From assembly GCA_016858145.1 (NCBI GenBank), contig JAEHOE010000059.1, positions 372,001-436,000 of the forward strand: a DNA stretch of 64,000 bases, written 5' to 3'. Below the pieces are notes generated by a model, which saw nothing but the letters and a program-made list of their open reading frames with translations, was not told where the DNA came from and searched no databases. The stretch comes from Edaphochlamys debaryana. Its lineage: Eukaryota; Chlorophyta; Chlorophyceae; Chlamydomonadales. A program made the position numbers and the translations under genes. This document shows positions 114-54,555 of the stretch, piece after piece; the stretch's first letter is position 1, and each line of letters opens with the position of its first letter.

Positions 114-225
114 GCCGCGTACGGCAGCTCCTGTACGGTATCGGCCCTGGTGTCGGGGGAGGGCACGGGGCCCCCCCGGGACCACGTGCTACACATGGCG
201 GCCTTCAAGTGCCTGGCGGACGCGG
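114..225 (+). pseudogene. Spherulin-4 (GH135-like) exon fragment
   Basis: This 112-nt exon, flanked by an AG acceptor and a GT donor, encodes the segment AAYGSSCTVSALV...KCLADAG. It matches the fourth exon of the intact gene at 33870-33981 with the same length and phase and only a handful of base differences. The intron downstream, up to about position 345, also matches the intact gene. The next expected exon (VKLYGYVHT) is absent, and unrelated sequence follows. I read it as a partial segmental duplicate; upstream exons could lie outside the window, so a gene ending abnormally here is possible. Confidence 0.7.
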
Positions 226-840
226 GTGGGGCAAGGGAGGAAGGTTGGGAGGGGGGCGTGGGGGTGACGGATGAAGTGTGCGTGTGGAAGAGGGGGACTG
301 TGGGACAGGTGGTTGCGGCAAGGGGCGAACGCAGCGGGTGGGTGTGGGGTGGATGGCAGGGCCGTGATGGAGCGTGGGGGCTAGACATGCCTGGTGGAAG
401 CGGATAGCGGGGGCCGGGCCGTTCTCACGCCGCAAGAACATGAGGCACGCGTCCAGAGTAAAAGGATGGCGCTGGGAAGGCAGGGGCCTCGAAATACACA
501 ATTGGGCGGTTGGAGGTTGGAGGCTTCGTGCCCTCCAGCGGGCCCCGAATGGGCCCTGGTGGATCCGTGAACGGGCAGGTCCGTAGATGCTGTGCACCTG
601 CCTCTGGGCTTTGACCTTTAGCCTTCCGTCTTCCATCTTCCGCCTGTGGCTGACACCTGTAGCGCTGCCTGTTTCACAAGCTTGTGGTGCCGCCCCCTCC
701 CACCACTCTCTCCCCAACCCATGTGGGCGCCCCGCCCCGCCCAGCAGCACTCGCACGTGGCCATCGCGGGCACCCAGCCACCCGCCGTGCCTGACACGAA
801 CCCACTCCCCCACCCCCCTCCATCCCCTTTCCTCCCCCCA

Positions 841-14500: not shown

Positions 14501-17500
14501 GCCACCAGCTGCCGCACCGGCCCCTCCTCCGCCACCGGCAATCTGGTGGTGCAGTACGGCTGCGTGTCGGGAAACAACGCCGAACTGGACAGCGTTGTGG
14601 TGAGCGCATGCTGTGACTTTGGGCCGTGCCTGTTGCTGCCCTGCTCCCTCTTCCACCTCTTGCCAACCCGCGCGCACCTCTTCCCAACCCGCGCGCAGAT
14701 TGCTTTCGACACCTCAGCCGGCGACGAGGAGTTCCGGCGCCACTTCGTCAAGTTCTACAACGTGTTGGGCGAGCAGGACCGAGAGACCTTCGACTTCACT
14801 GACGGCCTTAGCGGCACGGACGCTAGTGTCTTGCGCGACGCTCTGTCGCCGACGATTCCTCTCCCGGCCGGCAGCTGCTTGACGATGAGCAGCACCATCG
14901 AGTGCCCAATCGGCCAGTTCTGTGACGGGTCCACGCTCAAGTGCACCTTGCCGCTACCCAAGGGCTCCAGCTGCCACAGCTCCTACCAGTGTGGCGACGG
15001 CTTCAGCTGCGATTCGCGCTTCTGCGGCGGACCGTTCGTGGTCATCTTTGGGACCAACCCAGGTGGGTGTCATGGGGCCTGCGCTTAAAGCCATGACTTG
15101 GACGGTGCTAAGTCCAAGTACTTGACCCGCCGGCTGTGCAGTGTGCTACGTCGTCATCACCCCCGTCAGCAGTCCCTCCACGTGAGCTGCACCTCTCAGG
15201 TCAAGGGTCAGGGGGACAGGGTTCCCATGCGGCGACGGAGCGCGGATCAAGCATGATGGCTCATGTGTGCACCCGCCCACAATAGCCCTACATGCACGGA
15301 CTCCCCCCCCCTCTCGCAGCCCCAAGCCCACGCTGTCGCTGTTCGAGGTCAGGATCTCTGGCACCTCGCCGTCGACCGTGGACGCCCGCATGTCCCTGGA
15401 TGACCCCGCCAACCCGCCGTTCGAGTGCGTGGACGGCATCGTCAACGGCATCGGCTGCCGCAGCAACACCGCCAGCACCGCGCCGGTGGCCAACCTGGTG
15501 GTGCGCTACGCCTGCCCCACAAGCGCCCTCCGGATGGAGGTCAGTACATGTGTCTGAGGTGTGGGGCGACGGCTTCTCTAGGGCTTGCAGCATACATGTC
15601 AAGCCGCACCCTGCACCCCGTGCACCCCGTTGCATGCTGAACCCACAGGTGTACGCGGACACTTCTTCCGGTTCTGGATCAAACTCATACTGGCAGTCGC
15701 TCATGAATTTCCAGGTGCCGTACAATACACCGCTCGGGCAATGCGGTCGAGCTAGGGTGTCCTCTTTGTTTCTACCTGCTCAGCTGGCATGCTTGGACGG
15801 GGCCGCGCAGGACGTGCCTGAACACCTCCAACTCCTCCCCGCGCATCAACCCCCCATACACACAGGTGCGCTTCTACGACTCCCAGCGCCGCGAGGACCG
15901 CCCGGCCTTCGTCTTCAACGACCACCCGGACCTGGACGGCCAGAAACAAGCGGTTTACAAGTTCGACGCAGACCCCAAGACGCCCACTGCCGCCGTGGCG
16001 GGCTCCTGCTTCGTTATCGGAGACCGCAGCGCCAGCGTGTGTCCCACGGGGTTCTACTGCGACGGCGGCACCCTCACCTGCAAAGCGCTGGTGCCCGTCA
16101 GCGGCTCCTGCTACGCCAGCTTTCAGTGCACCGACCAGGCTCAGGGCTGCGTCGCGGGCAAGTGCGCCGGCACGCCTGAGGTCACGGGCCCCACGTGAGT
16201 GCTTGCGGTACTGGGCGGGACAGGAGAGTACGCCCACCCGGTGCAAGTAGTGCATGCCCCGTTGTCTCCTATCTAATCCCCCCTCCTGCCTGCCCCTGCC
16301 CCTGCCAGTTCGTGCCCCACCGGCCAGACCCTCGAGGCCACTGGTACCGGCTGGGCCTGCCTTAACACGCCTTTCGGGAGCAACCCTGGTGCGTCCGAGC
16401 CAACAGTGCTTGCGCCATCACCCAACTTGCTTAAGCGATGTGGGATTAACGCCTCTTTCTGTTCCCTGCCTCCCTAGTCTGCTCCCTCGTCATCACGCCC
16501 AGAGCTTACCCTGACCCTTTTGACGACCAATTCCGGTACCAGAAGTGAGGGAGGGAGGGCGAATGGGACCATGCCACTGGCGGGGATCCTGACGTTCTGT
16601 GCCTGGCGCTGCGGCGGTGTCATCGGATTATCAGGAATCAGCGCCATGGGACGCGGACGCCATCGATCCCAGCAAACACTTGGACAGGGGAGGGACACAG
16701 GAACCTTGTTCGCTCTCTTCCAACTTTCCTCCAACTCTCTTCCTGCACACAGTGCCAAGCCACGGTTTGCATCAAACGAGACCAAGCTGTACGAGGGCCT
16801 CGGGGGCGTCATCAGCGGCGCCAACCTGGACGTGCGCATAAGCTCCACCGCGCCCGGGTAAGCAGGCATGTGCATTCGCAGACGCACAGATGGTTGCAGC
16901 TTCCGCGTAGGCTTTGGGCTTGAGCCCCCTGCAGTTACCATCAGAGAGCGTGAGGGGCCATGTGGCGGGGTGTCATGAGGGGTGTCATGGAGCCACACGC
17001 TAGCTTGCCTCGTAAGGCCACGCCGAGGTCCCAGGACTGTCAGGTGTCCAACTCCCGCGAGTTTCCGTTTGTAGCCACGCACCGGTACCGCTCATGGTTG
17101 GGTTGGGAGGCAACACTCTCACTACCACTGCTATCCTTGCCCGCAGATACCCCGCCTCCCAGTGTGTGGATGGCTTGGTGGACGGTCCTGCGGTTGGCTG
17201 CCGCACCAGCAGTGACGCCGCTGCTCCAGTCGCCAACTACGTCCTGCGCTACGCTTGCGCTGGGGGCTCGAGCCCCTACTGGACCCTGGAGGTAAGGGGG
17301 GTTGGCGCAGCACAAGGGGTAAGGGTGTCGGCCGCCGCTAGCGAGACCGGACGCCATTGTTTGGCCCCACCTGCCGTGCGCGTGGCTTGTGATACCGGCT
17401 TTGCTAGGGCTGCTGGAGTTGAAGCAAAGCACGGCAAAGGCACGCTCGGCTCCAGACCCCGCGGCGCCTGCCCTGAAAGCACCCACTCACGCCACTCATA

Positions 17501-17866
17501 CCGCGTTCAAACGTTCTATGCTCGCAGGTCTTCGCGGACGGCACCACCGCCCTTCTGGACTTCGAGCTCCGGCGCTACAACGCTGCCGGCCAGCTCGACC
17601 GCAACATAGTAACGTTTGCCAGCAACATTATCGACAGCAACTACATCCCGCGGCACTTCATGCAGGCTGACGGCATCAGCCCCGTCGCCAAGGTGGCAGG
17701 AGCCTGCTTCACCATCGGCTCCCGTACCGGCTGCGACGCGGGGCAGTACTGCGATGGGGACCTGTCGTGCAAGTCACTCAAGGTGACGGGCGCCAGCTGT
17801 TACTTGCGCTTCGAGTGCCTCAGCGCAACCTGCACCAGCGGCGCTTGCGCCACTAGCACCGGCTAG
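2549..17866 (+). CDS. Large secreted cysteine-rich modular matrix protein
   Basis: About 30 exons encode roughly 1,700 residues. The start at 2549 opens a clear signal peptide (RASLLPAALLLAFCCPFPAA). Exons at 4381-6103 carry ephrin-receptor/GCC2-GCC3-like Cys-rich repeats. Exon 7797-8092 has a hydrophobic stretch and a short heptad coil (SLDDIKASLDEIKSS). Exons 14365-17866 hold three tandem modules, each a galactose-binding-like (F5/8C-like, tentative) unit with a C-D-x-x-x-x-x-x-C-R core followed by a knot with GQFCDG or GFYCDG. Clear exons include 3928-4270, 4730-5062, 6392-6606, 7443-7665, 8253-8356, 12733-12925, 13012-13202, 14699-15062, 15865-16194 and 17528-17866. The 4.4-kb intron 8357-12732 holds a retroelement; joining its flanks restores frame (ALFTR-YKAYLYAYG). 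The second exon (near 2805-2852) is uncertain. Probable extracellular or wall protein; substrate unknown. Confidence 0.72.
4664..4682. repeat. AC dinucleotide microsatellite
   Basis: A short run of alternating C and A lies in an intron of the matrix protein gene, just before an acceptor. Confidence 0.6.
5146..5480 (+). repeat. Dispersed repeat, copy 1
   Basis: This intronic block shares ordered motifs with 8455-8790 and, inverted, with 19150-19445: GTGTCATGGAGCCA, then CCAGCTAGCCTCCCA, then GAGAACGGG-AAAGTT, then GCTCGCGGTCGCACAAACTCG, then GATGTCCGCGACTTTTGC. There is no coding capacity, and I could not identify terminal inverted repeats. It is probably a non-autonomous mobile element or decayed repeat family. 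Confidence 0.65.
8455..8790 (+). repeat. Dispersed repeat, copy 2
   Basis: It carries the same ordered motif series as copy 1, in the same orientation, in the intron that also received the retroelement immediately downstream. Confidence 0.65.
8919..9347 (+). repeat. 5' LTR of the deleted element
   Basis: It begins TGTTGTGCG and ends GGTACAACA (TG...CA termini), 429 bp. It contains an inverted repeat near its start (ACCGTAGA...TCTACGGT) and a palindrome around GCTGGCACGCGCCAGC. Confidence 0.88.
9350..9366 (+). other. Primer-binding site
   Basis: TGGTAGCGGGACCTGCC starts two bases after the LTR end. The leading TGG pairs with the CCA tail of a tRNA; I cannot name the tRNA with confidence. The same site follows the LTR at 30425. 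Confidence 0.7.
9390..11574 (+). pseudogene. gag with intron, stop and frameshift
   Basis: The ATG at 9390 opens a short first exon (9390-9489). A 196-nt intron (9490-9685, GT...TGTAG) follows, and exon 2 continues in phase with ENRDPEGKAPD. A Pro/Ala-rich linker leads into a retrotransposon gag domain (around 10560-11100: RAFIRDVTEYF, KTWLDDWTA, RQSYAWIANRDTVAAYQSRF). A basic, Gly-rich tail and a CCHC zinc knuckle CLNCGASDHRVAEC follow, and the stop is at 11572-11574. It is broken by a reading problem near 9930, an in-frame TAG near 10107 and a one-base slip in a C run near 11190. The structural polyprotein is therefore non-functional here. Confidence 0.75.
11635..12576 (+). pseudogene. Truncated pol: N-terminal extension plus retropepsin
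   Basis: A single open frame of about 190 residues of unknown function leads into an aspartic protease with the catalytic motif [13 protein letters not shown] and the second conserved block around [17 protein letters not shown]. Coding sequence ends at the deletion junction near 12576, where the frame runs into LTR sequence. The protease part matches the protease of the other element almost residue for residue over the shared stretch. Confidence 0.8.
12577..12650 (+). repeat. 3' LTR remnant
   Basis: Seventy-four bp match the end of the 5' LTR (tctgggttctcacttagctc ... tggtacaaca). Host sequence resumes at 12651. Confidence 0.85.
16965..17035 (+). repeat. Partial copy of the dispersed repeat
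   Basis: An intronic segment contains GTGTCATGGAGCCACACGCTAG and CTTGCCTCGTAAGG, matching only the first part of the repeat at 5146. A still weaker trace (GTCATGGAGCATGTGCTAGG) lies near 6673. Confidence 0.45.
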
Positions 17867-20743: not shown

Positions 20744-22526
20744 TCAGTCCGCCACCGCCGGTCCCGTAATGAAGGGGTGCTGCAGCGCCTGCTGTGGGGT
20801 CGGTCGCAGCGCGGGGTCCTCCGCCAGCATCTGCCCAATCAGGCTTTGCAAGCTAGCAGGCACGAACGACGGCAGCTGGCGCTTGCCCTGCCGCAGCAGG
20901 TACAGCTGCGTGATGCGGCCGTGGTAGGCCGCGCACGACGCCAGGAGCAGGCCCAGAGAGTACATGTCGGCGGCGGGGCTGATGCGGGCGCACAGTTCAG
21001 GCGTCGGCTCGTCAAATGCAGCGTCCACCTCAGGGGCGCTCCAGCCAAAGGTGCCAACGACGGGGTAGTGGCCGGTCACGGGGCTTCGAGCCGAGGAGGC
21101 GCCCAGGTCTGGGGCGACAGGCAGACGGAGGCACGGGGAGCGGAATGTCAGCAACGCGAGGCAGCGTATGGTGCTGGCGCTTTGGTAGTTGGGCTGGAGC
21201 TAGCACACGGTGACCCAACCAGCCCCCGGCTCAGCTTGCCCGCGCAGTAGTCCTGGCCAACCTCTGCAACTAGCCCTCTGCCTTGGCCAACTCCTGTGCC
21301 CCTGCCCTCGCTCACCTCCCAGCATGACCCTGTCCGCCTTGAGCAGCACGTTCTCCGGCTTGAGGTCGAAGTGGCCAAAGCCCTTGTCGTGCAGGACGGC
21401 GAACGACTCCAGGACCGCGACGGCGACCTGGCGGATGCTGCACTCCGGAAGCAGCATCTTGGTATCGTTGAAGTACGGCGCAGCCAGTTTCTGCGCGGGG
21501 AGGGGAAGGGAGCACGGGGGGGGGGGGGCGTGAGGAAGCGGGCCGGGAGAGACCAGGCCAGCACAGGCGTCCACACAGGTGTTCGGCGCCCAGACCTCGC
21601 TCTGCCCCTTACTTCCCGTCAGCTCCACTCCCCGGCTGCCCTGCGTGCCTCCCTCCCTCCGCCCCCGGCCTCACCAGCTCCTCCTGCAGGGTGCCCAGCT
21701 CGCCCAGCTCCATGAGGATGCGGCAGCGGGGCTTGAACGAGTGCGCCAGCAGCTGCACGGCGCCGGGGCAGCCCTGCAGCCGCTGCATGGCCGCGACCTC
21801 GGCCCGGAGCGCGGGGCGCGCGGGGTGGGCCTTGGTGCCGGCCGTGAGCGTCTTGCGGGCGCAGCGGAAGAGCGAGCCATCGGGCAGCCGCACCGTGCCC
21901 TCCTCCACCACGCCGAAGGCGCCCATGCCCAGGACCTTGACGGGCGTGAAGAGCTCCAGGCCGTGCAGGGCGAGGAAGGCGAGGGGGTCCAGCGGGGCCT
22001 GGGGAGCGAAGGCAGGGAGGGGGAGGAAGGGACGTTGAGGAGAGGGCGGGTGCCGGTCGCAGCCCCATGCCCGAAGAGATGGATAATCCTGCCCCCCTAT
22101 GGCTCCGCATCAGCTCACCTCCTGCTCCGTATCGTTGTCGCTCTCATCCGAACTTGTGCCCGCGGCGGAGCTGCCGTCAGAGACCGAGTCCCGCGGGGAC
22201 CCGCAGCTGGAAGCCTGCACGAACGAGGCAGAGCGGGGCATGAGACGGCGTCCCAGGGCGTCACGCGACGACAGCTTTCGACTTACAGTGTCCGGGACCA
22301 AGGTGTCGAGAGCCGGGGCTTGAAGTTTAGGGATGTTGAGGTTGCAGACCGGCATCTCGGCGGGCATCGTGGCGACCGAGGCATCATCGGCACATGCGGC
22401 CTTGCCATCGGGCTGCCAGACACGTCGCTCGGCCACGCTGCTTGGCTGGAAGGCCGCAGCCTCGTCGCAAGCGCTGGTGATGCCGCGGACGACCATGCGC
22501 ACGCCGACGACGGTCAGCGCGAGCAT
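20744..22526 (-). CDS. Protein kinase, non-RD, with N-terminal hydrophobic segment
   Basis: Five exons (22526-22287, 22214-22119, 21998-21675, 21490-21316, 21108-20744) sum to exactly 400 codons, giving 399 aa. The start lies in a strong context (GCCACCATG) and begins with a hydrophobic run (MLALTVVGVRMVV) that could be a signal anchor. An acidic Ser-rich stretch precedes the kinase domain. Visible motifs: glycine loop GMGAFGVVEEG, lysine in RCARKTL, the alpha-C glutamate in LRAEVAAMQRL, catalytic loop GHFDLKPENVLL, metal motif DLG (split by an intron after the first base of its Asp codon) and SAPE. The catalytic loop has HFD instead of HRD, and DFG is DLG; both still hold the needed Asp. It is probably an active Ser/Thr kinase; substrate unknown. 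Confidence 0.82.
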
Positions 22527-33038: not shown

Positions 33039-36000
33039 ATGTATGCGGTCAACACCTTCATCGTTTCCGCGCTCATGGCGACCGTGGCCATCTCGCTGTC
33101 GGGCAAGCCTTCGCAGCGCAGGCATGACAGCGCTCATCCTGAGCCTTGTAACATAGCCTTCCCGTCTGGCTTGCAGGTTCAGCCGGCGCTGTCGACTGTC
33201 CGGCAGGTAGACATGCGAAATTGCGTTCCCTGCCGTTCGCGACGGGCATAAGGGCAAGAACACAGCCTACATATTGCACTGGTATAATGCACGCACCCTG
33301 GATGGATGTCATGTATGACCTGCACCTACCCAGCTGCTTCCCCCCTTCCCCCGCCTCCCGGTCTCCCCCAAACTCCCCGCCTGGTCACCCATACCCACCC
33401 TCCCCGACAGACCCCCGCGGCATGGGCGTCATGATCCCCCTCTACGTGGACCCGGAGGACCTGGCCTTGATAGACCGAGTGGTGGGGAGGGGCAGGGAGG
33501 AGATCGGGGGAATGGAACAGGGGGAGGGGCCCGGGGAGGACGGGGCGGGGAGGAGGGGGATGCGTGGACGGGAAGGCAGGGGATGAGGGGGGGTGGGGGG
33601 CACGGCTGGCCCTCATAGACCGAGGCCGGGGCAAGTCTAACTGAGGGCAGGGGCAAGGAGACGGGGGCCGGGGTGAGGGGAAGGAAGTGGCGGAGGGGTG
33701 CCATTGCAGCGATCACAGACCCCAGAACGGCTCTGGCCCGGAGCTAGGAATCAAGAAGGGCCATAGAGCCCATTAGAACCCCGGGCTCAACGCAGGATCT
33801 GAAGGAGACAGCCTGAAGAGGTAGGCACCCGATCCTCCCGTGCGAATGCCGCCCTCTCCCCAACCGCAGGCGGCATACGGCAGCTCCTGTACGGTATCGG
33901 CCCTGGTGTCGGGGGAGGGCACGGGGCCCCCTCAGGACCACGTGATCCACATGGCGGCCTTCAAGCGCCTGGCGGACGCGGGTGGGGCAAGGGAGGAAGG
34001 TTGGGAGGGGGGCGTGGGGGTGACGGATGGGGTGTGCGTGTGGAAGAGGGGTTATTATAGACAACGGGGCGTAGTGCCGCGGTGACTGGCGTCGCATTAT
34101 GTTGGCCGACGCACAACTGCCTGTGCCTGTGAACGGGGTACCCTTCCGCCGAAAGTGGCTTCCAGGCTGAAAGTCCCCCCCTAGAGCAACCCCGGGCTGC
34201 TCCGCGCGTCGGTGCACCAAGCGGGGCTGGCGAGCCGGCTCCACCGAAGGAAAGCCCCGAGAAAGCCCCGCTTACCTCGCCGTTTACCTGTGCGCTGCTG
34301 CTGTGCGTCCTCCGCTCCTGGCCCGCCATCGCCCGAGCCCGTTCGCGAGTAGCGCGCCCACGGAGGCCTAAGCGTCCCCACGTCCCACGGAGCCGAACCT
34401 GTGGGTGGTGAAGGTGTAGTCCCAGAGACGGAGGGGAAGAGCGTGAGCGGCCGAAGACTTGAGAGCATGCCAGCGAGGTGAACAGGCGGACGGTGAAGGC
34501 CAGCGCGGCCAGGGTCTAGCAAGTAACCTAGGGCTCGGGCTATGGCGGTGTAGCCGGTGCGGCCACCTGCGCGGCAGGAAAGGGGGGGGGCAAAAACGGC
34601 CGTACCCGGACCATGTGAAGTGCGGGTGGAACCAGTGGGGGGGGGGGCCGGTGCGGTGCGGTGCGATGCTTTGCAGGGGGGGCGGACCCAACGCAAGGGG
34701 CGTGCGTGCTGGGGTGCATCGGGACTAGGGCAGTCGGCGGGCCATGAAGCGTGGCTCCCCACCGTCCGTGGAAGAGGGGAACTGTGGGACAGGGGGTTGC
34801 TGCAAGGGGCGAACGCAGCGGGTGAGTATGGGGTGGATGGGGCGGATGAGTGTCGTTCACGCTTGGGGAGCACGCCTTCATGCCTGCCTCGAGTCCTTGA
34901 TGAGCCCCAACTCGGTCGTCTCTCCTGCCGCCCAGGCGTCAAGCTGTACGGCTACGTGCACACACTCATCGCCGCTCCCGACACTGCCGTACGGCGGGTG
35001 GCCGACGTCACGGCAGACATACGGACCTGGTGCGTGCATGGGGCCGTGCATGGGGCCGCAATTCTCTTGCATGGTCACGCTTGGTTCTGCGGGGATTATC
35101 AGGTTGGACCCCGGTGGTGCGTGTCAAGTGGACCTGCCGTGTGATGTGCTGTACGGCAGGTTCGACCACTACGGCACCGTACTCACGGGCATCTTCGTGG
35201 ACGAGGTGGAGGAGGAGCCGTCCAACGTGAGACGGGCTACGGCGGGGCTGTGCGGCGCATACTGCCCGCGTGCAGCGGCACGGGGCACGATGCACCCCGC
35301 CGCGCAGGTCACCAACCTTCACTAGATGCATGCGCCATGTTTGCAACCGGTTGCCCTGCTCCCACACGCCGCCACCCGGCACCTGCTCCACACCCTGGAG
35401 TGTGTGGGGGTGTCGAGCAGACCTCCACGTCCCCACAGCTCCTGACAACTTCTCATCCATCTTCCCACTCACCGCCCTGTTCCAGGCCAATGCGCTATCC
35501 TACTACGGCGCCCTGGCAGACGTCATCCACGCCCGCGGCGGCCGGGTGGTGTTCAACCCGGGGACCCAGATCGGCTGCCGCCTGGCAGGGCTGGCGGTGA
35601 GCACGTGGGGCTCACTGATGTAACTCACTCACTCACCTCCCCGACCCCCACCCCCCTGCCGCAAAACTCCTGACCCCTAATCCCCGCACCCCCTCCTCCC
35701 GCCCCCTCCGTTCCCCTGCCCAGGACGTGTACGTGCGGTTCGAGTCCAGCGCCGCAGATTGGCGCTCCGAGGTCCGCGACGGGGCCCGCTGCGACTGCGC
35801 CTCCAGCGCCGCCTGCGCGCTGCTGGTGTACCGCCAGGTGTGTACGGCACACCACGTGTGTACGGCACCCCTGCCCACTCCAGCTGCGTGCTCGTGCAAC
35901 CCCAAGGAACAGCGCCGCGCTAGGACCTCAGCGGCCGGGTGAAGCTCCGGGGGCCCCAGCGAAACCCGGCGGCACTTTCCCCTTCGCGTGTGATCTCGAG

Positions 36001-38836
36001 CATGGCCTCACGTGCAAGTCGAAGCTGGTGACCCAGATCGACCGCTCGCCCCCCTCTGCCTGCACCGCGCCCTGTGCCGCCAGGACGACGGCTCTGCGGG
36101 GGCGCTGCAGGGCCTGGTCGCCCAGGCCGAGGACCGGGGCTTCTCCTTCGTCTACCTCACCGACGACCGCCTGCCCAACCCCTGGGACGCGCTGCCCAGC
36201 TACTGGCCGGCCTTCATGCGCGCCGTGACGGGGGTAGGTGGGTGAGAAGGGATGGGGGATGGAGGGTGGGGCAAGGCTGGACGTCTGGGCGTCTGGGCTG
36301 CAAAAGGCTTTGAAAGGCTGCACGGCGAAGGCTTTTGGGCGGGGGTCCGGGTCACGCCGCGCCCTCACAACCGCCTCCACTACCCCCCCACAGTCTTCCG
36401 GCCCTACGCCAACCCCGTCGCCCTCGCCCTCGCCCTCGCCAAGGCCGCAGCCGCAGCCCCGCCCGCGGCCGCGGCCGCGGCGATCCAAGCCGTCCCCCAG
36501 GGCTTCCCCTCAGCCGTCCCCCAAGCCCTCCCCCAAACCATCCCCCAGCCCCTCACCCAAGCCTTCCCCCAGCCCTTCTCCCAAGCCTTCCCCCAGCCCG
36601 TCTCCCAAGCCTTCCCCCAGCCCCTCCCCCAAGCCTTCTCCCAGCCCCTCGCCCTCCCCCGCTCCCACCCCAGCCGGCATCTGGCGCCCCTCCGGCCCCC
36701 ACCGCTGGCAGTGGCAGTTGACCGGATCCAACTTCCGCCCCATGCTGATGACTAAGCCGGACGTAATCGACGTGGACGTGGACGCCGTGGAGGACATGCT
36801 GGCACAGGCCAAGCAGCTGAGCATTGCCCGCACCTCTTACAAGGTGGATAGGTCGGATCCAGGGTTGCTAACTATCTCAAAACGCAATACTCCCTTGCCG
36901 TTAGACGTGTAGTTGGTTGGATGACAGCTTGCATTGACGAAAGATGTACGCTTGCCTCCCCTCCTGACAGCTCATCTGCTACTTTAGCTCGGGCACCTTT
37001 GAGGAGTTCCGTACTGATGCTGACGCGGAGCGAGGCGTGGATTGGGCAGCCGTATACCGTACACTGGGCGGTATGGGAGGTACGGCCGCCGGCAAGGCCG
37101 TACCGGGCCCGCTGTTTCTGCAGTACATGGACTACCCCTGGGTGGACGAGATCTGGTTCGCGATCGACTCGACGGCCGCCAGGGACGTCCTCGTGCAGCA
37201 GGTGGGGCCTGGAGCGGGCCTGTGGGGGCCTGATGGGGCCTGCGGTTGAGACCGTATGGGCCTGGCTAGGTCCTCATCCGAGCCTTCTTCTGGGCTGTGT
37301 ACCGATACCACAGCTCCCCTTGCCGTACGCCGCCGCCGCACATGATATCGCCCACAGGTCATGATCCCCCGCATGCAAAGTGCCGTACGGGCCGGCTGTG
37401 ATGCCATCGAGATGGTGAGGGGGGAGGAGTTGTGTCAGAGAAGGGCTTCATGAGGGAACGAGCTAACCCGGGAAAGAGCGAAGGCGGGAGCGGGCCCCAT
37501 GCGAGCGCGTCATCCAGCAGGCTTTTAGCTGCCAGCCCCAAAGCTCCCTGTACCTGTCCTGCCGAAGCCTGCCTCATCAAGCTACCGCAAACCTTACTCT
37601 CCACCATCTCTTCATCTTCGTGACCTCAGGACAACGTCGACACCTACCAGAATGTTCCCCAGACTTCGAAAAAGCGGGGCGTGACCCTGGCCCAGAACCT
37701 GGCGTACAACCAGGCGCTGCTGGACGCCGCACACGGGCTGGGGCTGGTGAGGGCTGCTGCGGGCGCCTGAGAGGGGGGGTTGCAGTGGGGCTGGTGATGG
37801 ACGATGAGGAGTCATGGGTCGGGTAGCTGTGCGCATGAGGTGAGGCCGGTGTCAGCGCAAGCGAGCACACGCATATCATGAGCACTGCTCACGCCTCCTG
37901 TGCCTTCCTCTGTCCCCCACCCCCACCCCACCCCCACCCCCAGTCCGTGGGCCTGAAGAACGCTGTGGGCATGCTGACGGAGCGGTTCGCGGACGGGCGC
38001 CGGGTGGCGGACGCATACGACTGGTGGGGGCCTGGGGGCGGGGTCGGGGCTTGAGGTAGGGCGGGGATGGGCGGTGGGTTGAAAGCACGCCGGGGGCAAC
38101 CTGTGTGGAGTGATCTGAGTGAACGTGGGCGTAGAATGTGGGGGCGTTCATCTCTACCCTCGCTCCGCCCAACCCCCAGGTTCCTGAGCGAGGAGTGCTA
38201 CACGTACGATGAGTGCGACAGCTACCAGAAGAGCATCAAGCGGTGAGGACTGGGAGTGGCAGCACGGTCGCTCACCTTCCCGCAGCCACCAGCCTTGTCG
38301 CTTGGCGCCCCTCGTCCTCGTCCACTCCCATCCCCGCCTAACAACCCACTGTTTCTTGCCCCCAACCGCCCACCCACCCGCAGCCCCGCCTCCGTCTTTG
38401 CGGTGGAGTACTGCGATGCGATCAAGGCATTCGGCGATCCGGAGATGGTCAACCTCAAGCCGCCCTGCGTGTGCGGTATTGCCACATCCCCCGCTTGGAA
38501 TGACCCGTCCGGGGTGGGTCCGTGGGACAGTGGGGCAGCGCTACTGGGATGTGTACTGGGATATTTTCTCAAGGGGGCATTGGGGCATTGGCCTGAACCT
38601 CTGCTGTGTACCCACCCTTGCCCCCCCCCATGCCCTCTCCCTCTACCTCCACCCCCTCCTGCCAGGTGGTGATGAACCTGCTGATCAAGCACGTGAACCT
38701 GGAGACGCAGGGAGCGGACTGCAGGGACTACTGCGCACGGCCGGGGGTCACCTGCGCAGCGCCGGCAGGGTCAGACCCGGCGGCGTGCGCCGTATCCAAG
38801 TCCGCTGACATCTGTCCGTCGTACAGCATCGTGTGA
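33039..38836 (+). CDS. Secreted GH135-like (spherulin-4) + GH114 fusion glycosidase, copy A
   Basis: Seventeen exons sum to 704 codons (703 aa). A signal peptide (VSALMATVAISLSG) precedes a spherulin-4 domain (~30-271) with IPLYVDP, LYGYVHT, candidate acids D138/E139 in GIFVDEV and E190 in RFE. A linker of KPSPSPSP repeats (~272-366) follows, then GH114 (~367-640): WQWQLTGSN, DVIDVDVD, LICYFSSGTFEEFR, GCDAIEM-DNVD (D518), GLKNAVG, SEEC (E587/E588), VEYC (E612), and a Cys-rich tail. In fungi the GH135 enzyme Sph3 and the GH114 enzyme Ega3 cleave galactosaminogalactan, so a galactosamine-containing polysaccharide is the inferred substrate, acting outside the cell. Intron 1 uses a GC donor. Exon bounds: 33039-33102, 33177-33206, 33411-33481, 33870-33981, 34936-35029, 35160-35226, 35486-35596, 35724-35837, 36084-36233, 36394-36843, 36971-37201, 37358-37414, 37630-37746, 37944-38023, 38180-38242, 38384-38513, 38666-38836. 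Confidence 0.88.
34052..34779. mobile_element. Insertion with 12-bp target duplication in an intron
   Basis: The 12-mer GTGGAAGAGGGG occurs at 34040-34051 and again at 34768-34779. The duplicated intron at 1-345 has the same flanks joined without the intervening ~716 bp, so it shows the empty site. The insert has no terminal inverted repeats that I can see, no convincing open frame, and two G-runs. The long duplication suggests target-primed retroposition rather than an LTR element. Confidence 0.65.
36394..36678 (+). repeat. Ser-Pro/Lys-Pro linker repeat
   Basis: Tandem units encoding KPSPSPSP link the two enzyme domains. Such linkers are typical of volvocine hydroxyproline-rich wall proteins and are usually heavily glycosylated. 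Confidence 0.8.
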
Positions 38837-43313: not shown

Positions 43314-46300
43314 ATGTCTGAAGAGCCGTCTCCGAAACGCCTAAAGGCGGATGAGGGCGATGTTGGCGAAGCCGGGGACGGCGCGGAGCTCGAGCAAGTC
43401 GCCGAGGAGCGGCTAGCTACTGAGCTGGACGAGGTCCAGAAGGCCCTTGACAAGGTCAGTCCTCAGGAGGGCATACCGGGACGGGTGTAGAGCCCGCACA
43501 GCTAAGCATGCAATCCGGCGCTGCACGCTCGCTGTCGAAGGGCCACCGACCTGCTGCTAGCATGCTATGCGGCCTTGGACCGATGTTAGGCACCTGGGAA
43601 TGCGGGATCGCAAGGGCCTGCGCCGAATGCCGCGCTTGGGGCCGGGCCCGCGCTTTGCCCCCTCCCCGCGCTCCCCACCCCTGGGATGCCCACCTGCACA
43701 CCCCGTCCCCCGTCCACCTGCACACCCCGTCCCCCGTCTTGGGGGCTGTCTCGAGACCTTACAGAAGCACACCGCTAGCCACCCGGGCTTGCTCGCACCC
43801 CGGCTGACCCGCCCGTTGCGCCACGCAGTTGGGCGTTGGGCTCTGGAGCCTGCCCTAGCAGCGAGGGCTCTGCAGCCAGCCCTGGCAGCACCCCCTCTGC
43901 CCTGAGCACTCGGCCGCAGCAACCCTCGGCACAGGGGACAGCATTATAATTTCATACGGTTCTCGTTTCGGGGCCTCGCTCTGGGTTACAGGGCAGCGTA
44001 ACCTCGGCCATCCTTGCTTCGTGCATGTCAGGCACTTTCGGTCACCAGAAACCAGCCAGGAGGAGAGAGGGGTGGCGCTACGTTTCCCCAATCTCACCTC
44101 TGCGAGGCACGCTCCCTCCCAACAACGGCACTCCGCACTACCAGCGCAGCCAACCTCGGTTCCAATCCCACTGCATACGGCCCTCGCATTCCCACCCCCC
44201 CACCCTGCTCGCCCCTCCCCCGTCACCCCCTCACACCCCACCCCTGATCCTCCACCCCCCCATCCCTCTCCTCCCCCCTCACCCCCTGTCAGGTCAACGA
44301 CGAGGCCAGCGACCGGGTCCTGGCCGTGGAGCAGGAGTACAACAAGAAGCGGCGGCCCATCTACACGCAGCGGGCCGACATCATCCGCCGCGTGCCGCTG
44401 TTCTGGCAGCGCACGCTGTGCTCGCACCCCTCGCTGGCGGACCAGCTCACGGACGAGGACACGCAGGTGGGGGCAATGAGGGGCTGGGGGAAGGGGGGAG
44501 GACACGCACGGCGCAGGGCACAGAGTGGACGGGGCGTACGAGGAGGAGGACACGCGGGTGGGTGGTAGGGGCCGTGGGTCGCGTAGGTGTGCATGGGTCC
44601 CCACAGGGTGGCGGGCCAGCTGGCGGAGGAGGACACGCGGGTGGGGGCGGAGTGGCATGGGGCGTGAGCCGGTAGTGCTATCCTAGTGAGATTGGCAGAT
44701 GAGGTCCCATGGTCAGGAGGGCCACCTAGCCGACGAGGTCACGCAGATGTGGAGGGCCGCGGCACTCTGGGGGCGGGCTGGGGGGGCGGAGGGCGAGGGT
44801 CCCAGCGTGGCCCGGACCGGAGAGCACAGGACCCGGGGGAGCTCGGAGGGCACGTCACGGGGGTGGTGAGCATGCGTTGGCTGCCGTGGCAGGCCTAAGC
44901 TCTCGAGACTCTGCCCACACCTCCTTGCCCCCCCTGCCTTCCGACCCTCTGTCCCACTCCTCCTTCCCTTCCCTTCCCGCCCCTCCCCTCCTAGGTGCTC
45001 GAGTTCATGACGGAGGTGCGCAGCGCTCGGGGGGGCCGGAGGAGGGGCCTTGAGAGGTGGTGGTGGCGGGGGCGAAGGCGGGGGTGGGGCGCGTAGTGGT
45101 TGGGGCGGTTGCCCGACGGCCTCGTCAGGGGGGCCATGACCGGGGCGGCAGCAGCGGGGATTCAGAGGGGGGCGGGAGCGGGGGCTTCCTACCGCTCCGG
45201 CAACGGGAACTCCTTTGGCACACCGGCTTGGCGAGAAGACGGGAGCTGCAGGGCGGGGTACAGCCATGGGGCGTCAAGGGCGGTGGTATGGGTGGGCGCA
45301 AGCCGGGGCGCTCCCGAGGGGCCAGCTGCCAAGCCGGCCTCCAGCCTCTGGGCATCGGGACTTCGGGAGAGGAGGGCGTGGGTTGACGCTGGAGGGCTGC
45401 CAGGCGGCTGGGGTCCTCTGGAGCGCAGCCCGAGCGGGGCACAGGCCGCGGAGGAGCGGCGTGCGGAACCGCACGGGGAAGCGGACGTGCGGTGTGCACC
45501 TGGCTTAGTGCGCGCTCGTGCACATGGGTCTCGCCTCGTTGCGGGAGGGTTGTGTCGATTCACCGATTCATGTCGCATGCGGGGCTCCCGAGGGTTCGAC
45601 GGGAGGGGACGGGCACCCTGAAACGCCTGGGCCTCTCCTTGCCAACCTCCCTCTCCTGACCTTCCTTCTCCCACTCCCCCAACCCTGGATCTCGAATCTA
45701 CAGCTGGACGTGGTGGATTTCGACGACATCAAGTCCGGGTTCAAGATCGTGCTCACCTTCGCGCCCACCAACCCGTACTTCTCCAACGCCTCGCTGACTA
45801 AGGCCTTCCACTACGGCGACGACGGCCGCGTCACCATCGAGCCCTGCACCATCGACTGGAAGGAGGGCATGGTGCGTTGTCGGTTGGCGGTTGGCGGTTG
45901 AAGTGCGGCTCGTAACCTTTGGCGAAGTGGAGCAGCCGAGGAGCATCACATGACCTCACGCATCCCCTCCGCGCCTGCCCCTCCCCCAGGCGCCCAACTT
46001 CGACGGCGGGGCGCCCTCGTACATCGTGAGCGGGGTAGCCGGGTGGTGCGAGGCGGGAAGAGCAGGGGCTGGGATGGGCGGGAGGGCCCGGACAGTGCAC
46101 CGGGGGCGGGAGTGCGAGGGGTGGGAAGGGCTGCGAGCGCCCCGGCCTGGCCCCCTCGAGCATACCCCCCTTGCCTCCCCCTTACCCCCCCCCCCTCCCG
46201 ACTGTGTGGCGGTATGTACCTTCTCCGGCAATCCCTCTAACAACTAGACGCTGTCCCGCTTATCAGCTTCTAACACCTCTACCCCTCCCCCCCCAGTTCT

Positions 46301-49070: not shown

Positions 49071-52000
49071 CTAGATGATGCCGAACGAGGGGCACAGATC
49101 CGATGGCGTGCTGACGCCGCACAGGCTGGGGTCTGCCCCCGCTGGCGCCGCGCACGTGACCCCCGGCCGTGCGCAGTAGTCCCTGCAGTCCGCTCCCTGC
49201 GTCTCCAGGTTCACGTGCTTGATCAGCAGGTTCATCACCACCTGACAGGGGGGGGAGAGGTGGAGGCGGGAGGGATTGGGGGAGCAGGGGTGAGTACCCA
49301 GCAGAGCGAGGGCCAGGCGAGGTTCATATTCATGGCTCTGCCCTCTCCCGACGCCGCACGCACCCCGGACGGGTTGTTCCAGGCCGCGGCGGTGGCGATG
49401 CCGCACACGCAGGGCGGTTTAAGGTTGACCATACTGGGGTCAGCGAAAGCCTTGATCGCATCGCAGTACTCCACCGCAAACACGGAGGCGGGGCTGCGGG
49501 AGGGTGGGTGGGGGCACGTCAGGTGGTGGGGGTAAGCGAGGCGGGGAAAGGGAGAGCGGGGGCTCGCAGGGCGGGGCGGGGAAATGGCGGCGAGGGCAGG
49601 GCTGCGGGCATGTGGGAAGGTGAGCAACCGTGCTGGCACTCCCTCCCAGTCCTTACCGAGTGATTGCGGCCTTGTAGCTGTCGCACTCATCGTACGTGTA
49701 GCACTCCTCGCTCAGGAACCTGGGGTTCGGGGATGAAGCATAATTTAGGGATATGGGACCCCAGCACTCTTGACGGGATCACATGCCCACATAATGACTA
49801 TAACCCATGTGCTTCCGACCCATCCCCGCCCCCACCACCAGGCCCCCACCCCCAGCCCCAGGCACCCCCAGCCCCAGGCCCCCACCAGTCGTACGCGTCC
49901 GCCACCCGGCGCCCGTCCGCGAACCGCTCCGTCAGCATGCCCACAGCGTTCTTCAGGCCCACGGACTGGGGGTGGGGGCGGGGGGGTGGGGTGGGGTGGA
50001 AGGCACAGGAGGTGTGAGCAGTGCCCAAGAAATGCGTGTGCTCGATTGCGCTGACGCCGGGATCCCCTCATGCGCACAGCTACCGACCCAACACCCCCCT
50101 TCTCCCATCACCAGCCCCACTGCAAACCCCCCTCCCATACCCCCGCAGCAGCCCTCACCAGCCCCAGCCCGTGTGCGGCGTCCAGCAGCGCCTGGTTGTA
50201 CGCCAGGTTCTGGGCCAGGGTCACGCCCCGGGCGGTGGCGGTCTGGGGAACGTTCTGGTAGGTGTCGACGTTGTCCTGTGGGAGGGGAGGGCGGAGGGAG
50301 GGGTGGGAGGGGTGGGAGGCTAAAGTACCGCCAAAGGCTCGGCAGCCTGGAGCACATACGCATGCCCGCTACCGCCGCGACTTGGCATTCCCGCGGCATG
50401 CGCACACCCTAGAGGCCCCCACTCCTCCCCTCGCCTTCCCCACCATCTTCCCTTCCCTCCCCTTCCCCACCATTTCGATGGCATCACAGCCAGCCCACAC
50501 TGCCGTACGCATGCGGGGGATCATGACCTGCGCGGACAAGCGAGGGCGGAGCGGATGTACGACAGTGTGAGCGCGCCGCACACACCAAACGTGCCGTACA
50601 AGCCACGTGCCGAACGACGCATCCCCACAAACCCTGTGGGGCCCCCCACCCCATCCCACCCCCCCACCCCGCCCTCCACCCTCGCCCTTCCTCACCCGAT
50701 TGATAAGCATCGCGCGCGTCTGGTTGCGGTCGATCGCGAGCCACTTCTCGTCCACCCACGGGAAGTCCATGTACTTGATGAACAGGGGCCCGGGCACCGC
50801 GAGGCCCGCGGCCGCCCCCCCCGTGCCGCCCAGCGCCTCGGCGATGGACGTCCAGTTGACGCCGCGGGCGAGGTCAAAGGGCTCGCGCCACTCCTCGTAG
50901 GTCCCCGAGCTGAAGTAGCAGATGAGCTGTGGTGGGTTGGGTTGGGAGGGGGGCCAAGGAGGAAGTAGCAGATGAGCGGTTGGTGAGAGGGGGGAAGGGA
51001 GCGGAGGGGAGGGGAGAGAGGGGAGGTAGGGAAGGAGGGGTTTGGGGCGGGCGCGAGGGCGGGGGGGCGGTGTGCCCACTTCCACACCCTAATTCCCTGG
51101 AGTTGCCCCTATTAGTAAGCCCCACCTTGTAGGAGCTGCGAGCAATGCCCAGCTGCCGGGCCTGAGCCAGCATGTTTGCCACGCTGTCCACGTCGACATC
51201 GATTACGTCAGGCTTAGTCAGCAGCATTGCCGTAAAGTTGGATCCGGTCAACTGCCACTGCCAGCGGTGGGGGCCGGAAGGGCGCCAAATGGTGGAGGGG
51301 GGCGCGGGGCTGGGGGGCCGGGGGGGCCGGGGCGAGGGGCTGGGGGGCGAGGGGGGTTTCGGGGGGCTTGGCGGCTTGAATGGAGAAGGCGGCTTGGGGG
51401 CAGGAGAAGGCGGCGCGGGCGGCCGGGGGGGCTTGGGGGCCGGGGAAGGTGGCTTCGGAGGCGAGGGCGGTTTCGGGGCAGGAGAGGGCGGCTTGGGGGG
51501 AGCGGGCGGCTTGGGAGCGGGAGACGGCGGCTTGGGAGGCGAGGGCGGCTTGGGGGCGGGGGACGGCGGCTTGGGAGGTGAGGGCGGTTTTGGGGCAGGA
51601 GAGGGCGGTTTTGGGGGGCCTGGCGGCTTGGGAGGAGGCGTGGGCGGCTTAGGGGGGCCGGGAGGTGAAGGCGGCTTCGGTCGGGGGCTGGGGGGCCGGG
51701 GCGATGGCTTGGGGGGTGCCGGCGGACGCGGCTTGGGGGAGGGGCGTGGTGGAGGAGTGGGAGGGCGCGGCGAGGGCAGGGGCTTGGGCGGAGAAGGCGG
51801 GGAGGGCGGGTAGGCGGCAGTCTTCTGCAGGGTCGGTGCGAGAGAGGCGCGAGGAGGGGCAATCAGGTGCAACCACGGGTGAAGCCTCACAACCCCTCGA
51901 CCCCCCTGAGCACCCCACCCCTACCCCCACCCCCCTCCCCGGACCCACCCCCGACGCCACGTGCAGCATGGAATCCCAGTAGCTGGGCAGCGAGTCCCAG

Positions 52001-54555
52001 GGGTTGGGCAGGCCGTCGTCGGTGAAGTACACGAACGAGTAGCCCAGGCTCTCGGCGCCCGACACCAGCGTGGTCAGCAGCTGGGTGGTGGCGGTTGCGT
52101 CGGCGGCCGGAGCCTGCGCGCGCAGACGTGGGGCAAACCGGGCTGAGCGCAGGGCATATCATCACAAGGGCGATCGAGACTGAGAAGTCAGAGCTGCACC
52201 GAGAGCCACAAGCTGCATGCGTGGCCCTGCCAAGCATGAGCACACAGTGGCATGCTTTTTGCCGTGGTGTGTTTTTCGCCCCCGAACGGGACAAAGTTGG
52301 CCGCGGTGTCATGGTCAGTAGGTGCCTGTGCAGATTCATGTTCAGTGCATAAGGTGGCATGCTTTCTGCCCACCTGTGCGTAGACCAGCAGCGAGCAGGC
52401 CGACACGTTGCCGCAGTCGCAGCGGCCGCCGCCCCCCACCACCTGCCCCCGCCACACGTCGGCGTTGGACTCGAATCGCACGTAGACGTCCTGTGGAGGG
52501 GGGGTGGGGGGGGTGGAAGGGCGGGAGAAGGGTGGGAGGAGGGAAGCGGGATAAGTTGGCAAGACCGTTTGCATGTACGGCAGCCGGACCTGGAGGTCTG
52601 TGCAATAGCGGGATAGGCCGTGTATTGCCCCCCTGCTCACCGACAGCCCTGCCAGCTGGCAGCTGATTTGAGTTCCCGGGTTGAAGATCACCCGGCCGCC
52701 CTTTGAGGCGATGTGGTCCGAGATGGCCCCATAGAACGTCAGCGCCTGGGGTGTGGGGGCAGGGGGTGGGGCCACGGGGTTTCGAGGCAAGGGTTGAGAG
52801 TCAGACGGAGGTACCGTACGTGCTGTGAGTGGAGGGCTCTCGTACTGGCACTGCTTGGGGCCTGTGGCCGTCCTCCCCACCTCCGTCCAAGCCCTGAACT
52901 AGCTGTAATACCCCCCAAATCCCGCCCAGCGTTATCTTGCCCTTCCCTTCCCAACGCCCTGCCCCCCGCCTCACGCTGGGGACGGCTGACGACACCTCGT
53001 CCACAAAGATGCCCGTGAGTACGGAGGTGAAGTTGCCGTACCTGTCGTACAGCACAGCCGCCGGTGACACAGGCGGGCATCAGGGGCGGAGGTCACCCAG
53101 GTCCCTCACCAGCGGAGCCCGTCCGCCCGACTCCTTCCTACAACCTCTTCCCCCCACCCGCAGTAGCTGTTTGTGATTCCGCTCGCGCCCATCCCCTTCC
53201 GTGGAAGTGGCAGAGCATTAGTAAGAAAAACCAGCGGCACGCACCAGATGTCAATGGCCCCCTTGACGTCAGCCACGGGCCGTGGCGTGGAGGTGGCGAA
53301 GTCCGACAGCGAGTGGATGTAGCCGTACAGCTTGATGCCTGTACGGCAGTGCGGTACGGCAGTGTGGTGGTGAGGGAAGATGCGCGGCAGCATGGGGTAG
53401 ACTTGCCCTCACCTCACCCCCCTTTCCCAGGTCCTTGTACCCCTGTGTACCCTTGTACCCCACGCACGCTTCGTGCCCTGCACACACGCTCCCTGCGACC
53501 CCGCGTCCGCCAAGCGCTTCCATGAACCCCGCCACCGACCCACGCCCCCCTCACACAAACACAGGCCCCTTTCTCCCCCCCCATTCCCGCCATCCACAGC
53601 GCCCCCACTGCACACACGCCTCTCCCCTACTCTCCCCCCATCCCGCCGTCCCATCCCCCACGCTCCCCCCAGGCCCCACCCGCGTCCGCCAGGCGCTTTT
53701 GTCCCGCCATCGACTCTCCCCCACCTCCCATACACACGCGCCTTCCCAATCTTCTCCCCTCCTTTCCCCTCCACCCTCCACCCCACGCCTGGCCCCCTTC
53801 AGCTCACCCGCGTCCGCCAGGCGCTTGTACCCCGCCATCCACAGCGCCTGCTCCGTGGTGGGGGGGCCGCTGGCGGGGCCCGTGATGATGGCGGACACCG
53901 TGCAGGCAGCGCCCCAGGCCACCTGGGGAGGAAAGGGGGCAGGGGGGGGGAAAGGGGGATCGGAAGGGGGTGGGGTGGTTAGGGGGAGTGAGGGGTGGCA
54001 AGGGGGAAGGGTGCTCCACAGAGGTCAGGGGGAAAGGGCAGGAGGGTAAGCTGGAGCGGTGAGGTGTGAGCCTTTTGGAGGTGGGACACGGCTGGAGGCG
54101 AAGCGGCCCTGCTGACTGTGGAGCACTTCCTCATCACTTCCACCCCGCCGCTGCTGTCCCCCCAGCCACCTCCACCGCCCCGCCCCCTACCCCGCTCACC
54201 ATCTTGTCCACTATCTCGGGCGCATAGTATGGGTTAACGTAGAGGGGAATGAGGATTCCCATGTTGTTGGGATCTGAGGAGAAGGAGTGGAGAGGGCAGA
54301 GCAGGTGGCGGTGTGAGCACTTCAGGGGAGTGGGGAGAGACACAGCCGCAAGCATGAGCGGCCAGGCCGCATATGCTTACCAGCCGGGCAGACGATCGCA
54401 TCGACTCCACCGCTGAGTCCTACAGTGAGGAGGGGTGCAGGTTGAGTACCCCGCCCAGGTTTAGTCGCGGGCGTGCGCCATGCCGACTTGCCCGACAGAG
54501 CGATGGCGACGGCCACCACTGAGGCGACGCGAAAGCGCCACGGCTGAGTATGCAT
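49071..54555 (-). CDS. Secreted GH135-like (spherulin-4) + GH114 fusion glycosidase, copy B
   Basis: This inverted paralogue of the gene at 33039 has the same domain order and, exon for exon, the same architecture. The start at 54555 gives a signal peptide (VASVVAVAIALSG). Spherulin-4 motifs: ILIPLYVNP, KLYGYIHS, GIFVDEV and VRFES. The linker is longer and of a different type (KPPSPPKPPSPAPKPP, about 51290-51830). GH114 motifs: WQWQLTGSN, LICYFSSGTYEEWR, GCDAIEM-DNVD, SEEC and VEYC. The last exon (49071-49241) has the same Cys-rich end. Intron 1 also uses a GC donor (GCAAGT). No break was seen. The expected substrate is the same galactosamine-containing polysaccharide; the linker difference suggests independent expansion of the repeats. 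Confidence 0.86.
51290..51830 (-). repeat. Pro-rich linker repeat of copy B
   Basis: Tandem PPSPAPKPPSPPKPPSPAP-type units of about 30 nt are encoded on the minus strand. The plus strand reads as a long Gly-rich open frame, which is only a shadow. Confidence 0.8.

Follow-up and report, generated by a model that had tools for sequence, protein, structure and literature searches.

A duplicated gene of Edaphochlamys debaryana joins GH135-like and GH114 domains in one chain, a pairing that recurs in other lineages

In a 64,000-nucleotide stretch of the genome of the green alga Edaphochlamys debaryana (contig JAEHOE010000059.1, positions 372,001 to 436,000; hereafter the window), we found two intact copies of a gene whose product unites a Spherulin4/GH135 domain and a GH114 domain. 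One copy (copy A, HYH03_010888) had been proposed in a first-pass annotation as a dedicated bifunctional enzyme; copy B, which is also complete and lies on the minus strand, was not mentioned there. The fusion is genuine, and the evidence for it is strong; similar pairings occur in other organisms, and the algal gene is one variant among them, not a unique algal invention. With a confidence slightly above an even chance, we interpret the products of both copies as a secreted two-site enzyme that would act on acetylated and deacetylated stretches of galactosamine polymers, its targets probably being exopolysaccharides of surrounding microbes. The observation made in the first-pass annotation was confirmed, and its interpretation was partly supported.

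The 703-residue single-gene model of copy A was reproduced exactly, the exon translation being identical to the deposited protein at every letter. As had been claimed from the letters alone, both domains were present in this protein, and each scored above its curated Pfam cut-off (Spherulin4, PF12138, aa 38–269, 99.7 bits, E 2.4e-28, cut-off 30.2; GH114, PF03537, aa 375–614, 147.2 bits, E 6e-43, cut-off 27); the corresponding scores of copy B were 86.2 and 150.5 bits. The predicted structure of copy A contained two barrels, a GH135 domain with the Sph3-like (beta/alpha)8 fold and a GH114 domain with the Ega3-like fold, and the best matches of the two were Sph3 and Ega3, respectively. By sequence, the solved structures of Sph3 (5d6t) and Ega3 (6oj1) were matched with E 4.1e-7 and 1.9e-20. 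The query in some early searches, including these Sph3 and Ega3 structure matches, was a 708-aa hand model that differs from the deposited protein at the N terminus only. This model, in which exon 1 ended at a GT donor at 33147, was dropped, as the deposited model with a GC donor and a 30-nt exon 2 fitted homologs better. The GC donor in intron 1 is common to both copies, and the gene finder behind the E. debaryana annotation takes GC donors only with read support. The proposed Ser-Pro linker was also found; it was unstructured in the model, with a predicted local distance difference test score (pLDDT) below 50 over aa 273–364. A signal peptide is plausible for copy A, judging from the N-terminal sequence and a modelled helix.

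The candidate acidic residues of both domains, described earlier as intact, were conserved well beyond this gene. Positions aligned with D166/E167/E222 of Sph3 were D/E/E, and those aligned with D189/E247 of Ega3 were D/E, in 9 of 9 green algal proteins examined, including both copies. Among 19 non-algal fusions, D/E/E was kept in the GH135 domain of 18, and only protein P0007, with Gln at the second GH135 acid, was altered at the catalytic acids. For Sph3 we take D166 and E167 to be catalytic: the motif Asp precedes the later Glu by 56 residues, which together with Glu222 gives Asp166. In print, the Sph3 catalytic pair appears as Asp196/Glu222 (PMC12054363). Asp189/Glu247 of Ega3 was consistent with the spacing in the Ega3 chain. 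The Ega3 Trp154 loop position is occupied by Trp in copies A and B and in Tetradesmus; the six remaining volvocine proteins have Phe there.

Copies A and B are oriented tail to tail. Copy B, detected by searching the window with the copy A protein, has 17 exons with phases matching those of copy A and no internal stops. It was not among the deposited-protein matches listed; either no such protein has been deposited, or its deposited model falls beyond the lengths that the search covered. Seven of the 17 exons differ in length between the copies, every difference being a multiple of 3, and all 16 introns differ, six of them by multiples of 3. Protein identity was 143/268 aligned positions over the signal and GH135 regions and 271/337 over GH114. 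The dN/dS ratio for GH114 was 0.34 (95% interval 0.24–0.47), or 0.30 without exons 13–15; values for single, short exons scattered from 0 to 2.7. The stretch of exon 13, intron 13 and exon 14 (37630–38023 in copy A, 50275–49886 in copy B) was 86–99% identical, whereas other introns were 39–65% identical, which suggests a gene-conversion patch between the copies. A truncated third copy near the start of the window is represented by an exon-4 equivalent (107/114 nt identical to copy A), with flanking intron matches reaching 356; no later exons were found by tblastn and blastn of the window. The deposited model HYH03_010884 (P0256) joins this piece to a different gene (3501–6648) and is probably chimeric.

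How widely the two domains are paired was examined in 257 proteins, namely copy B and 256 database matches listed (the listings held the best 120 of 136 and the best 120 of 3556), and in a prokaryote genome collection scanned with one narrow GH135 peptide pattern; the resulting counts describe search matches and are not frequencies. Custom domain profiles were seeded partly with the same proteins, but precomputed Pfam assignments mark both domains on the 27 database fusions. Both domains occurred in 28 of the 257 proteins, 9 green algal and 19 other, in the order GH135-GH114 in 18 and GH114-GH135 in 10. The algal proteins with the former order were the two E. debaryana copies and those of Volvox reticuliferus, V. 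africanus, V. carteri, Astrephomene gubernaculifera, Chlamydomonas incerta and C. reinhardtii. Since seven volvocine proteins besides copy A (P0002–P0006, P0240 and copy B) show the same arrangement of the two domains, the fusion is not a chance event. Tetradesmus obliquus OEZ85_014412 (P0010) has the reversed order; a partial extra GH135 match was seen at aa 276–345 of this protein.

Of the 88 loci confirmed in the prokaryote scan, 80 were retained. Fusion open reading frames (ORFs) were present at two, in Ca. Daviesbacteria (L028) and in a thaumarchaeote (L013, where the ORF runs off the contig end). A separate GH114 ORF was found nearby on the same strand at two further loci, both from Myxococcales, one of them weak (L010, E 2.7e-18), and no GH114 ORF occurred in the sequence stretch around the remaining 76. 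On the thaumarchaeal contig, a second GH135 gene without GH114 adjoins the fusion ORF, so that local paralogs exist there too. The uniqueness implied by the first-pass annotation is weakened by the other volvocine proteins, the reversed Tetradesmus protein, the 19 non-algal proteins and the two prokaryotic ORFs.

Phylogenetic trees indicate that the pairing arose repeatedly. At least 8 changes of fusion state were needed on a GH135 tree of 111 rows, 7 on a 58-row GH135 tree that included copy B, and 10 on a 75-row GH114 tree. A single origin of the GH135-to-GH114 fusions, with the 19 such rows of the 58-row tree forced into one clade, was rejected (approximately unbiased test, p-AU 1.3e-43), the group having been picked by label. 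In each tree the volvocine proteins formed one clade (100/100) on a long stem. A clade of volvocine GH135, Sph3 and P0014 was neither shown nor rejected (p-AU 0.30), and likeness to the fungal pair does not show fungal descent of the algal domains. A common origin of the volvocine and Tetradesmus proteins was not rejected for GH114 (p-AU 0.236) and was borderline rejected for GH135 (p-AU 0.047), the Tetradesmus GH135 domain grouping with a Chloroflexi sequence (99/90). Because its GH135 domain is split, P0006 is absent from both GH135 trees; for the 58-row tree, ten locus rows that were long or odd were removed, and 12 of the remaining other loci were picked at random. The 75-row tree included 28 randomly picked single-domain GH114 proteins and a very long branch (L010), and its bootstrap had not settled.

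With regard to function, the fungal enzymes offer a guide. GH135 is described as acting on the N-acetylated, GalNAc-containing form of the galactosamine polymer and GH114 on the deacetylated, GalN-containing form (PMC11356417), and GalNAc-rich streptococcal Pel aggregates are described as dispersed by Sph3 and not by Ega3 (PMC12345266). A two-site protein would therefore suit partly deacetylated chains. In our reading, the product of each copy would be a secreted enzyme in which a proline-rich tether connects two distinct catalytic (beta/alpha)8 barrels: the GH135 barrel at the N terminus would cut N-acetylated stretches of alpha-1,4-linked galactosamine polymers (fungal galactosaminogalactan (GAG), bacterial Pel and the like), the C-terminal GH114 barrel would cut de-N-acetylated stretches of the same polymers, and one polypeptide could depolymerise a partly deacetylated chain that lies beyond the full reach of either barrel alone. 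The recurrent pairing and the neighbouring ORFs at two loci support a shared substrate for GH135 and GH114. Among the algal proteins measured, six have a proline-rich linker, 17–186 aa long, which would suit a wall or matrix location, and the linker may retain the protein within the algal wall matrix. No linker is present in the models of C. incerta and C. reinhardtii, possibly because of an annotation gap. The likeliest targets would be exopolysaccharides that bacteria, archaea or fungi produce in the surroundings of the alga. We favor this source since the scan, which covered a small part of the neighbourhood, showed no synthetic cluster, and since the literature listing contained no algal galactosamine polymer. 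The first-pass annotation had known of no published description of the algal fusion; likewise, none was found of the fusion or of its algal role in literature judged by titles and abstract starts, with subscription papers mostly outside its scope. No Volvox matrix chitinase or lysozyme precedents were found in the literature search.

A broader proposal, which we regard as possible though doubtful, is that green algae, like some archaea and bacteria, independently built a two-site enzyme against partly deacetylated Pel/GAG-type exopolysaccharides as an antibiofilm or phycosphere-clearing tool, fusion in either order being a convergent solution to one mixed substrate. Recurrent fusion would then predict that both activities are needed together on such chains.

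Several observations weigh against a galactosamine-cleaving two-site enzyme. The GH135 dN/dS ratio between the copies was high, 0.75 (95% interval 0.55–0.995), and could reflect relaxed constraint; the counting method used gives too high a ratio under strong codon bias. In the GH114 model, the loop at aa 521–532, beside the catalytic Asp, had a pLDDT below 50. The volvocine stems were long (1.4–1.55 in GH135 and 2.7 in GH114), so specificity may have shifted. Finally, no algal galactosamine polymer was reported in the few papers found on galactosamine and green algal walls, judged by titles and abstracts.

The shift of specificity leads to an alternative that we consider unlikely, in which the fold was retained and the substrate changed, the volvocine enzyme acting on another glycan, such as an algal glycoprotein glycan. 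Besides the stems, it would account for NERC or SEEC around the GH114 catalytic Glu in place of the common bacterial NEQC, and for the Phe that six volvocine proteins have in the substrate loop. It is rather improbable that the alga produces its own, so far unrecognised galactosamine polymer and uses the enzyme to remodel it. Presence of the gene in several volvocine algae, its duplication here and linkers that fit wall residence all agree with such a role; however, the fungal enzymes are described as sitting in a cluster with synthase, epimerase and deacetylase (PMC11356417), whereas in the ten segments scanned here, of 103 in the window that look coding, Pfam matched only a kinase and a nucleosome assembly protein (NAP). 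The few papers found on galactosamine and green algal walls offered, by title and abstract, no such polymer, and fungi are given as the source of poly-galactosamine (PMC4454575). We give little credence to the view that one barrel has little or no catalytic activity and has a binding role, which would leave GH114 as the domain of importance: between the copies, GH135 has changed much faster than GH114, and prokaryotic P0007 carries Gln at the second GH135 acid, but the D/E/E set is kept in all algal proteins examined and in nearly all non-algal fusions. A wrong merge of two adjacent genes by gene prediction, which the linkerless Chlamydomonas models would favor, is highly improbable, as exon 10 codes for both the linker and the start of GH114 in each copy, the frame is kept over 17 exons, six further volvocine models among the deposited proteins join the halves, no start with a signal peptide was seen by eye in the open frame that precedes the linker, and the annotation is described as drawing on BRAKER with stranded RNA-seq (PMC8226300). 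TGTAA, which we take to be the volvocine poly(A) signal, was absent from intron 9 and also after either stop codon (scanned to 39600 for copy A and 48300 for copy B), so its absence from intron 9 is uninformative on one versus two transcripts.

Coordinates of the three copies and of the neighbouring matches are collected below. Long coding-like exons at 12734–17803 (+) had no Pfam match in four segments scanned.

Table 1. Features of the window, with positions counted from its first letter.
Feature	Position	Strand	Remark
Copy A, whole coding region (HYH03_010888, 703 aa, 17 exons)	33039..38836	+	exon translation equals deposited P0001
Copy A, exons 1–5	33039-33102 (GC donor), 33177-33206, 33411-33481, 33870-33981, 34936-35029	+	
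Copy A, exons 6–10	35160-35226, 35486-35596, 35724-35837, 36084-36233, 36394-36843	+	
Copy A, exons 11–14	36971-37201, 37358-37414, 37630-37746, 37944-38023	+	
Copy A, exons 15–17	38180-38242, 38384-38513, 38666-38836	+	
Exons 1–2, likely signal peptide	33039..33206	+	intron 1 GC donor after 33102; modelled N-terminal helix aa 6-19
Exons 3–9, Spherulin4/GH135 domain (Pfam aa 38-269)	33411..36233	+	
Ser-Pro-Lys linker, first part of exon 10	36394..36678	+	95 aa, 45% Pro, net charge +14
Rest of exon 10 to exon 17, GH114 (Pfam aa 375-614) and Cys-containing C-terminal tail	36679..38836	+	
Copy B, second intact fusion gene (17 exons, 795 aa)	49071..54555	-	window search with copy A protein; both Pfam domains
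Truncated third copy, exon-4 equivalent	114..227	+	107/114 nt identical to copy A exon-4 stretch; flanking intron matches reach 356
Protein kinase exon (PF07714)	21672-22013	-	Pfam match of coding-like segment
Nucleosome assembly protein exon (PF00956)	45686-45874	+	Pfam match of coding-like segment

What is added here to the picture of these enzymes is a second intact copy and the repeated recurrence of the pairing in both domain orders. If active, the algal protein would offer a natural counterpart, in a single chain, to Sph3, Ega3 and PelA, which have been studied as separate enzymes against galactosamine biofilms, and would suggest that algae act on, or make, a polymer class so far studied mainly in fungi and bacteria. 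The closest known system for the N-terminal barrel is Sph3 of Aspergillus clavatus (GH135, spherulin-4 domain; PDB 5d6t, 5c5g). Fungal Sph3 is described as a separate GAG-cluster protein with a transmembrane segment near the N terminus (PMC11356417) and has no GH114 partner domain, whereas the algal domain is fused. Similarly, Ega3 of Aspergillus fumigatus (PDB 6oj1) and the GH114 enzyme of F. solani (9ep6) are separate proteins, and the algal GH114 domain differs from them in its long stem and Cys-containing C-terminal tail. The same two domains in the same order as in copy A are found in P0007 and Ca. Daviesbacteria L028, in P0147 and Thaumarchaeota L013, and in P0144 and P0200. However, these prokaryotic-type fusions are 25–31% identical to copy A and lie on separate branches in both trees; fn3 domains (P0144) or a GH114_assoc domain (P0200) stand between the barrels where the algal protein has a plain linker, and P0007, unlike the algal copies, has the Gln substitution in GH135. 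Tetradesmus P0010 and nine other proteins also carry both domains in one chain, in the order opposite to that of the volvocine proteins.
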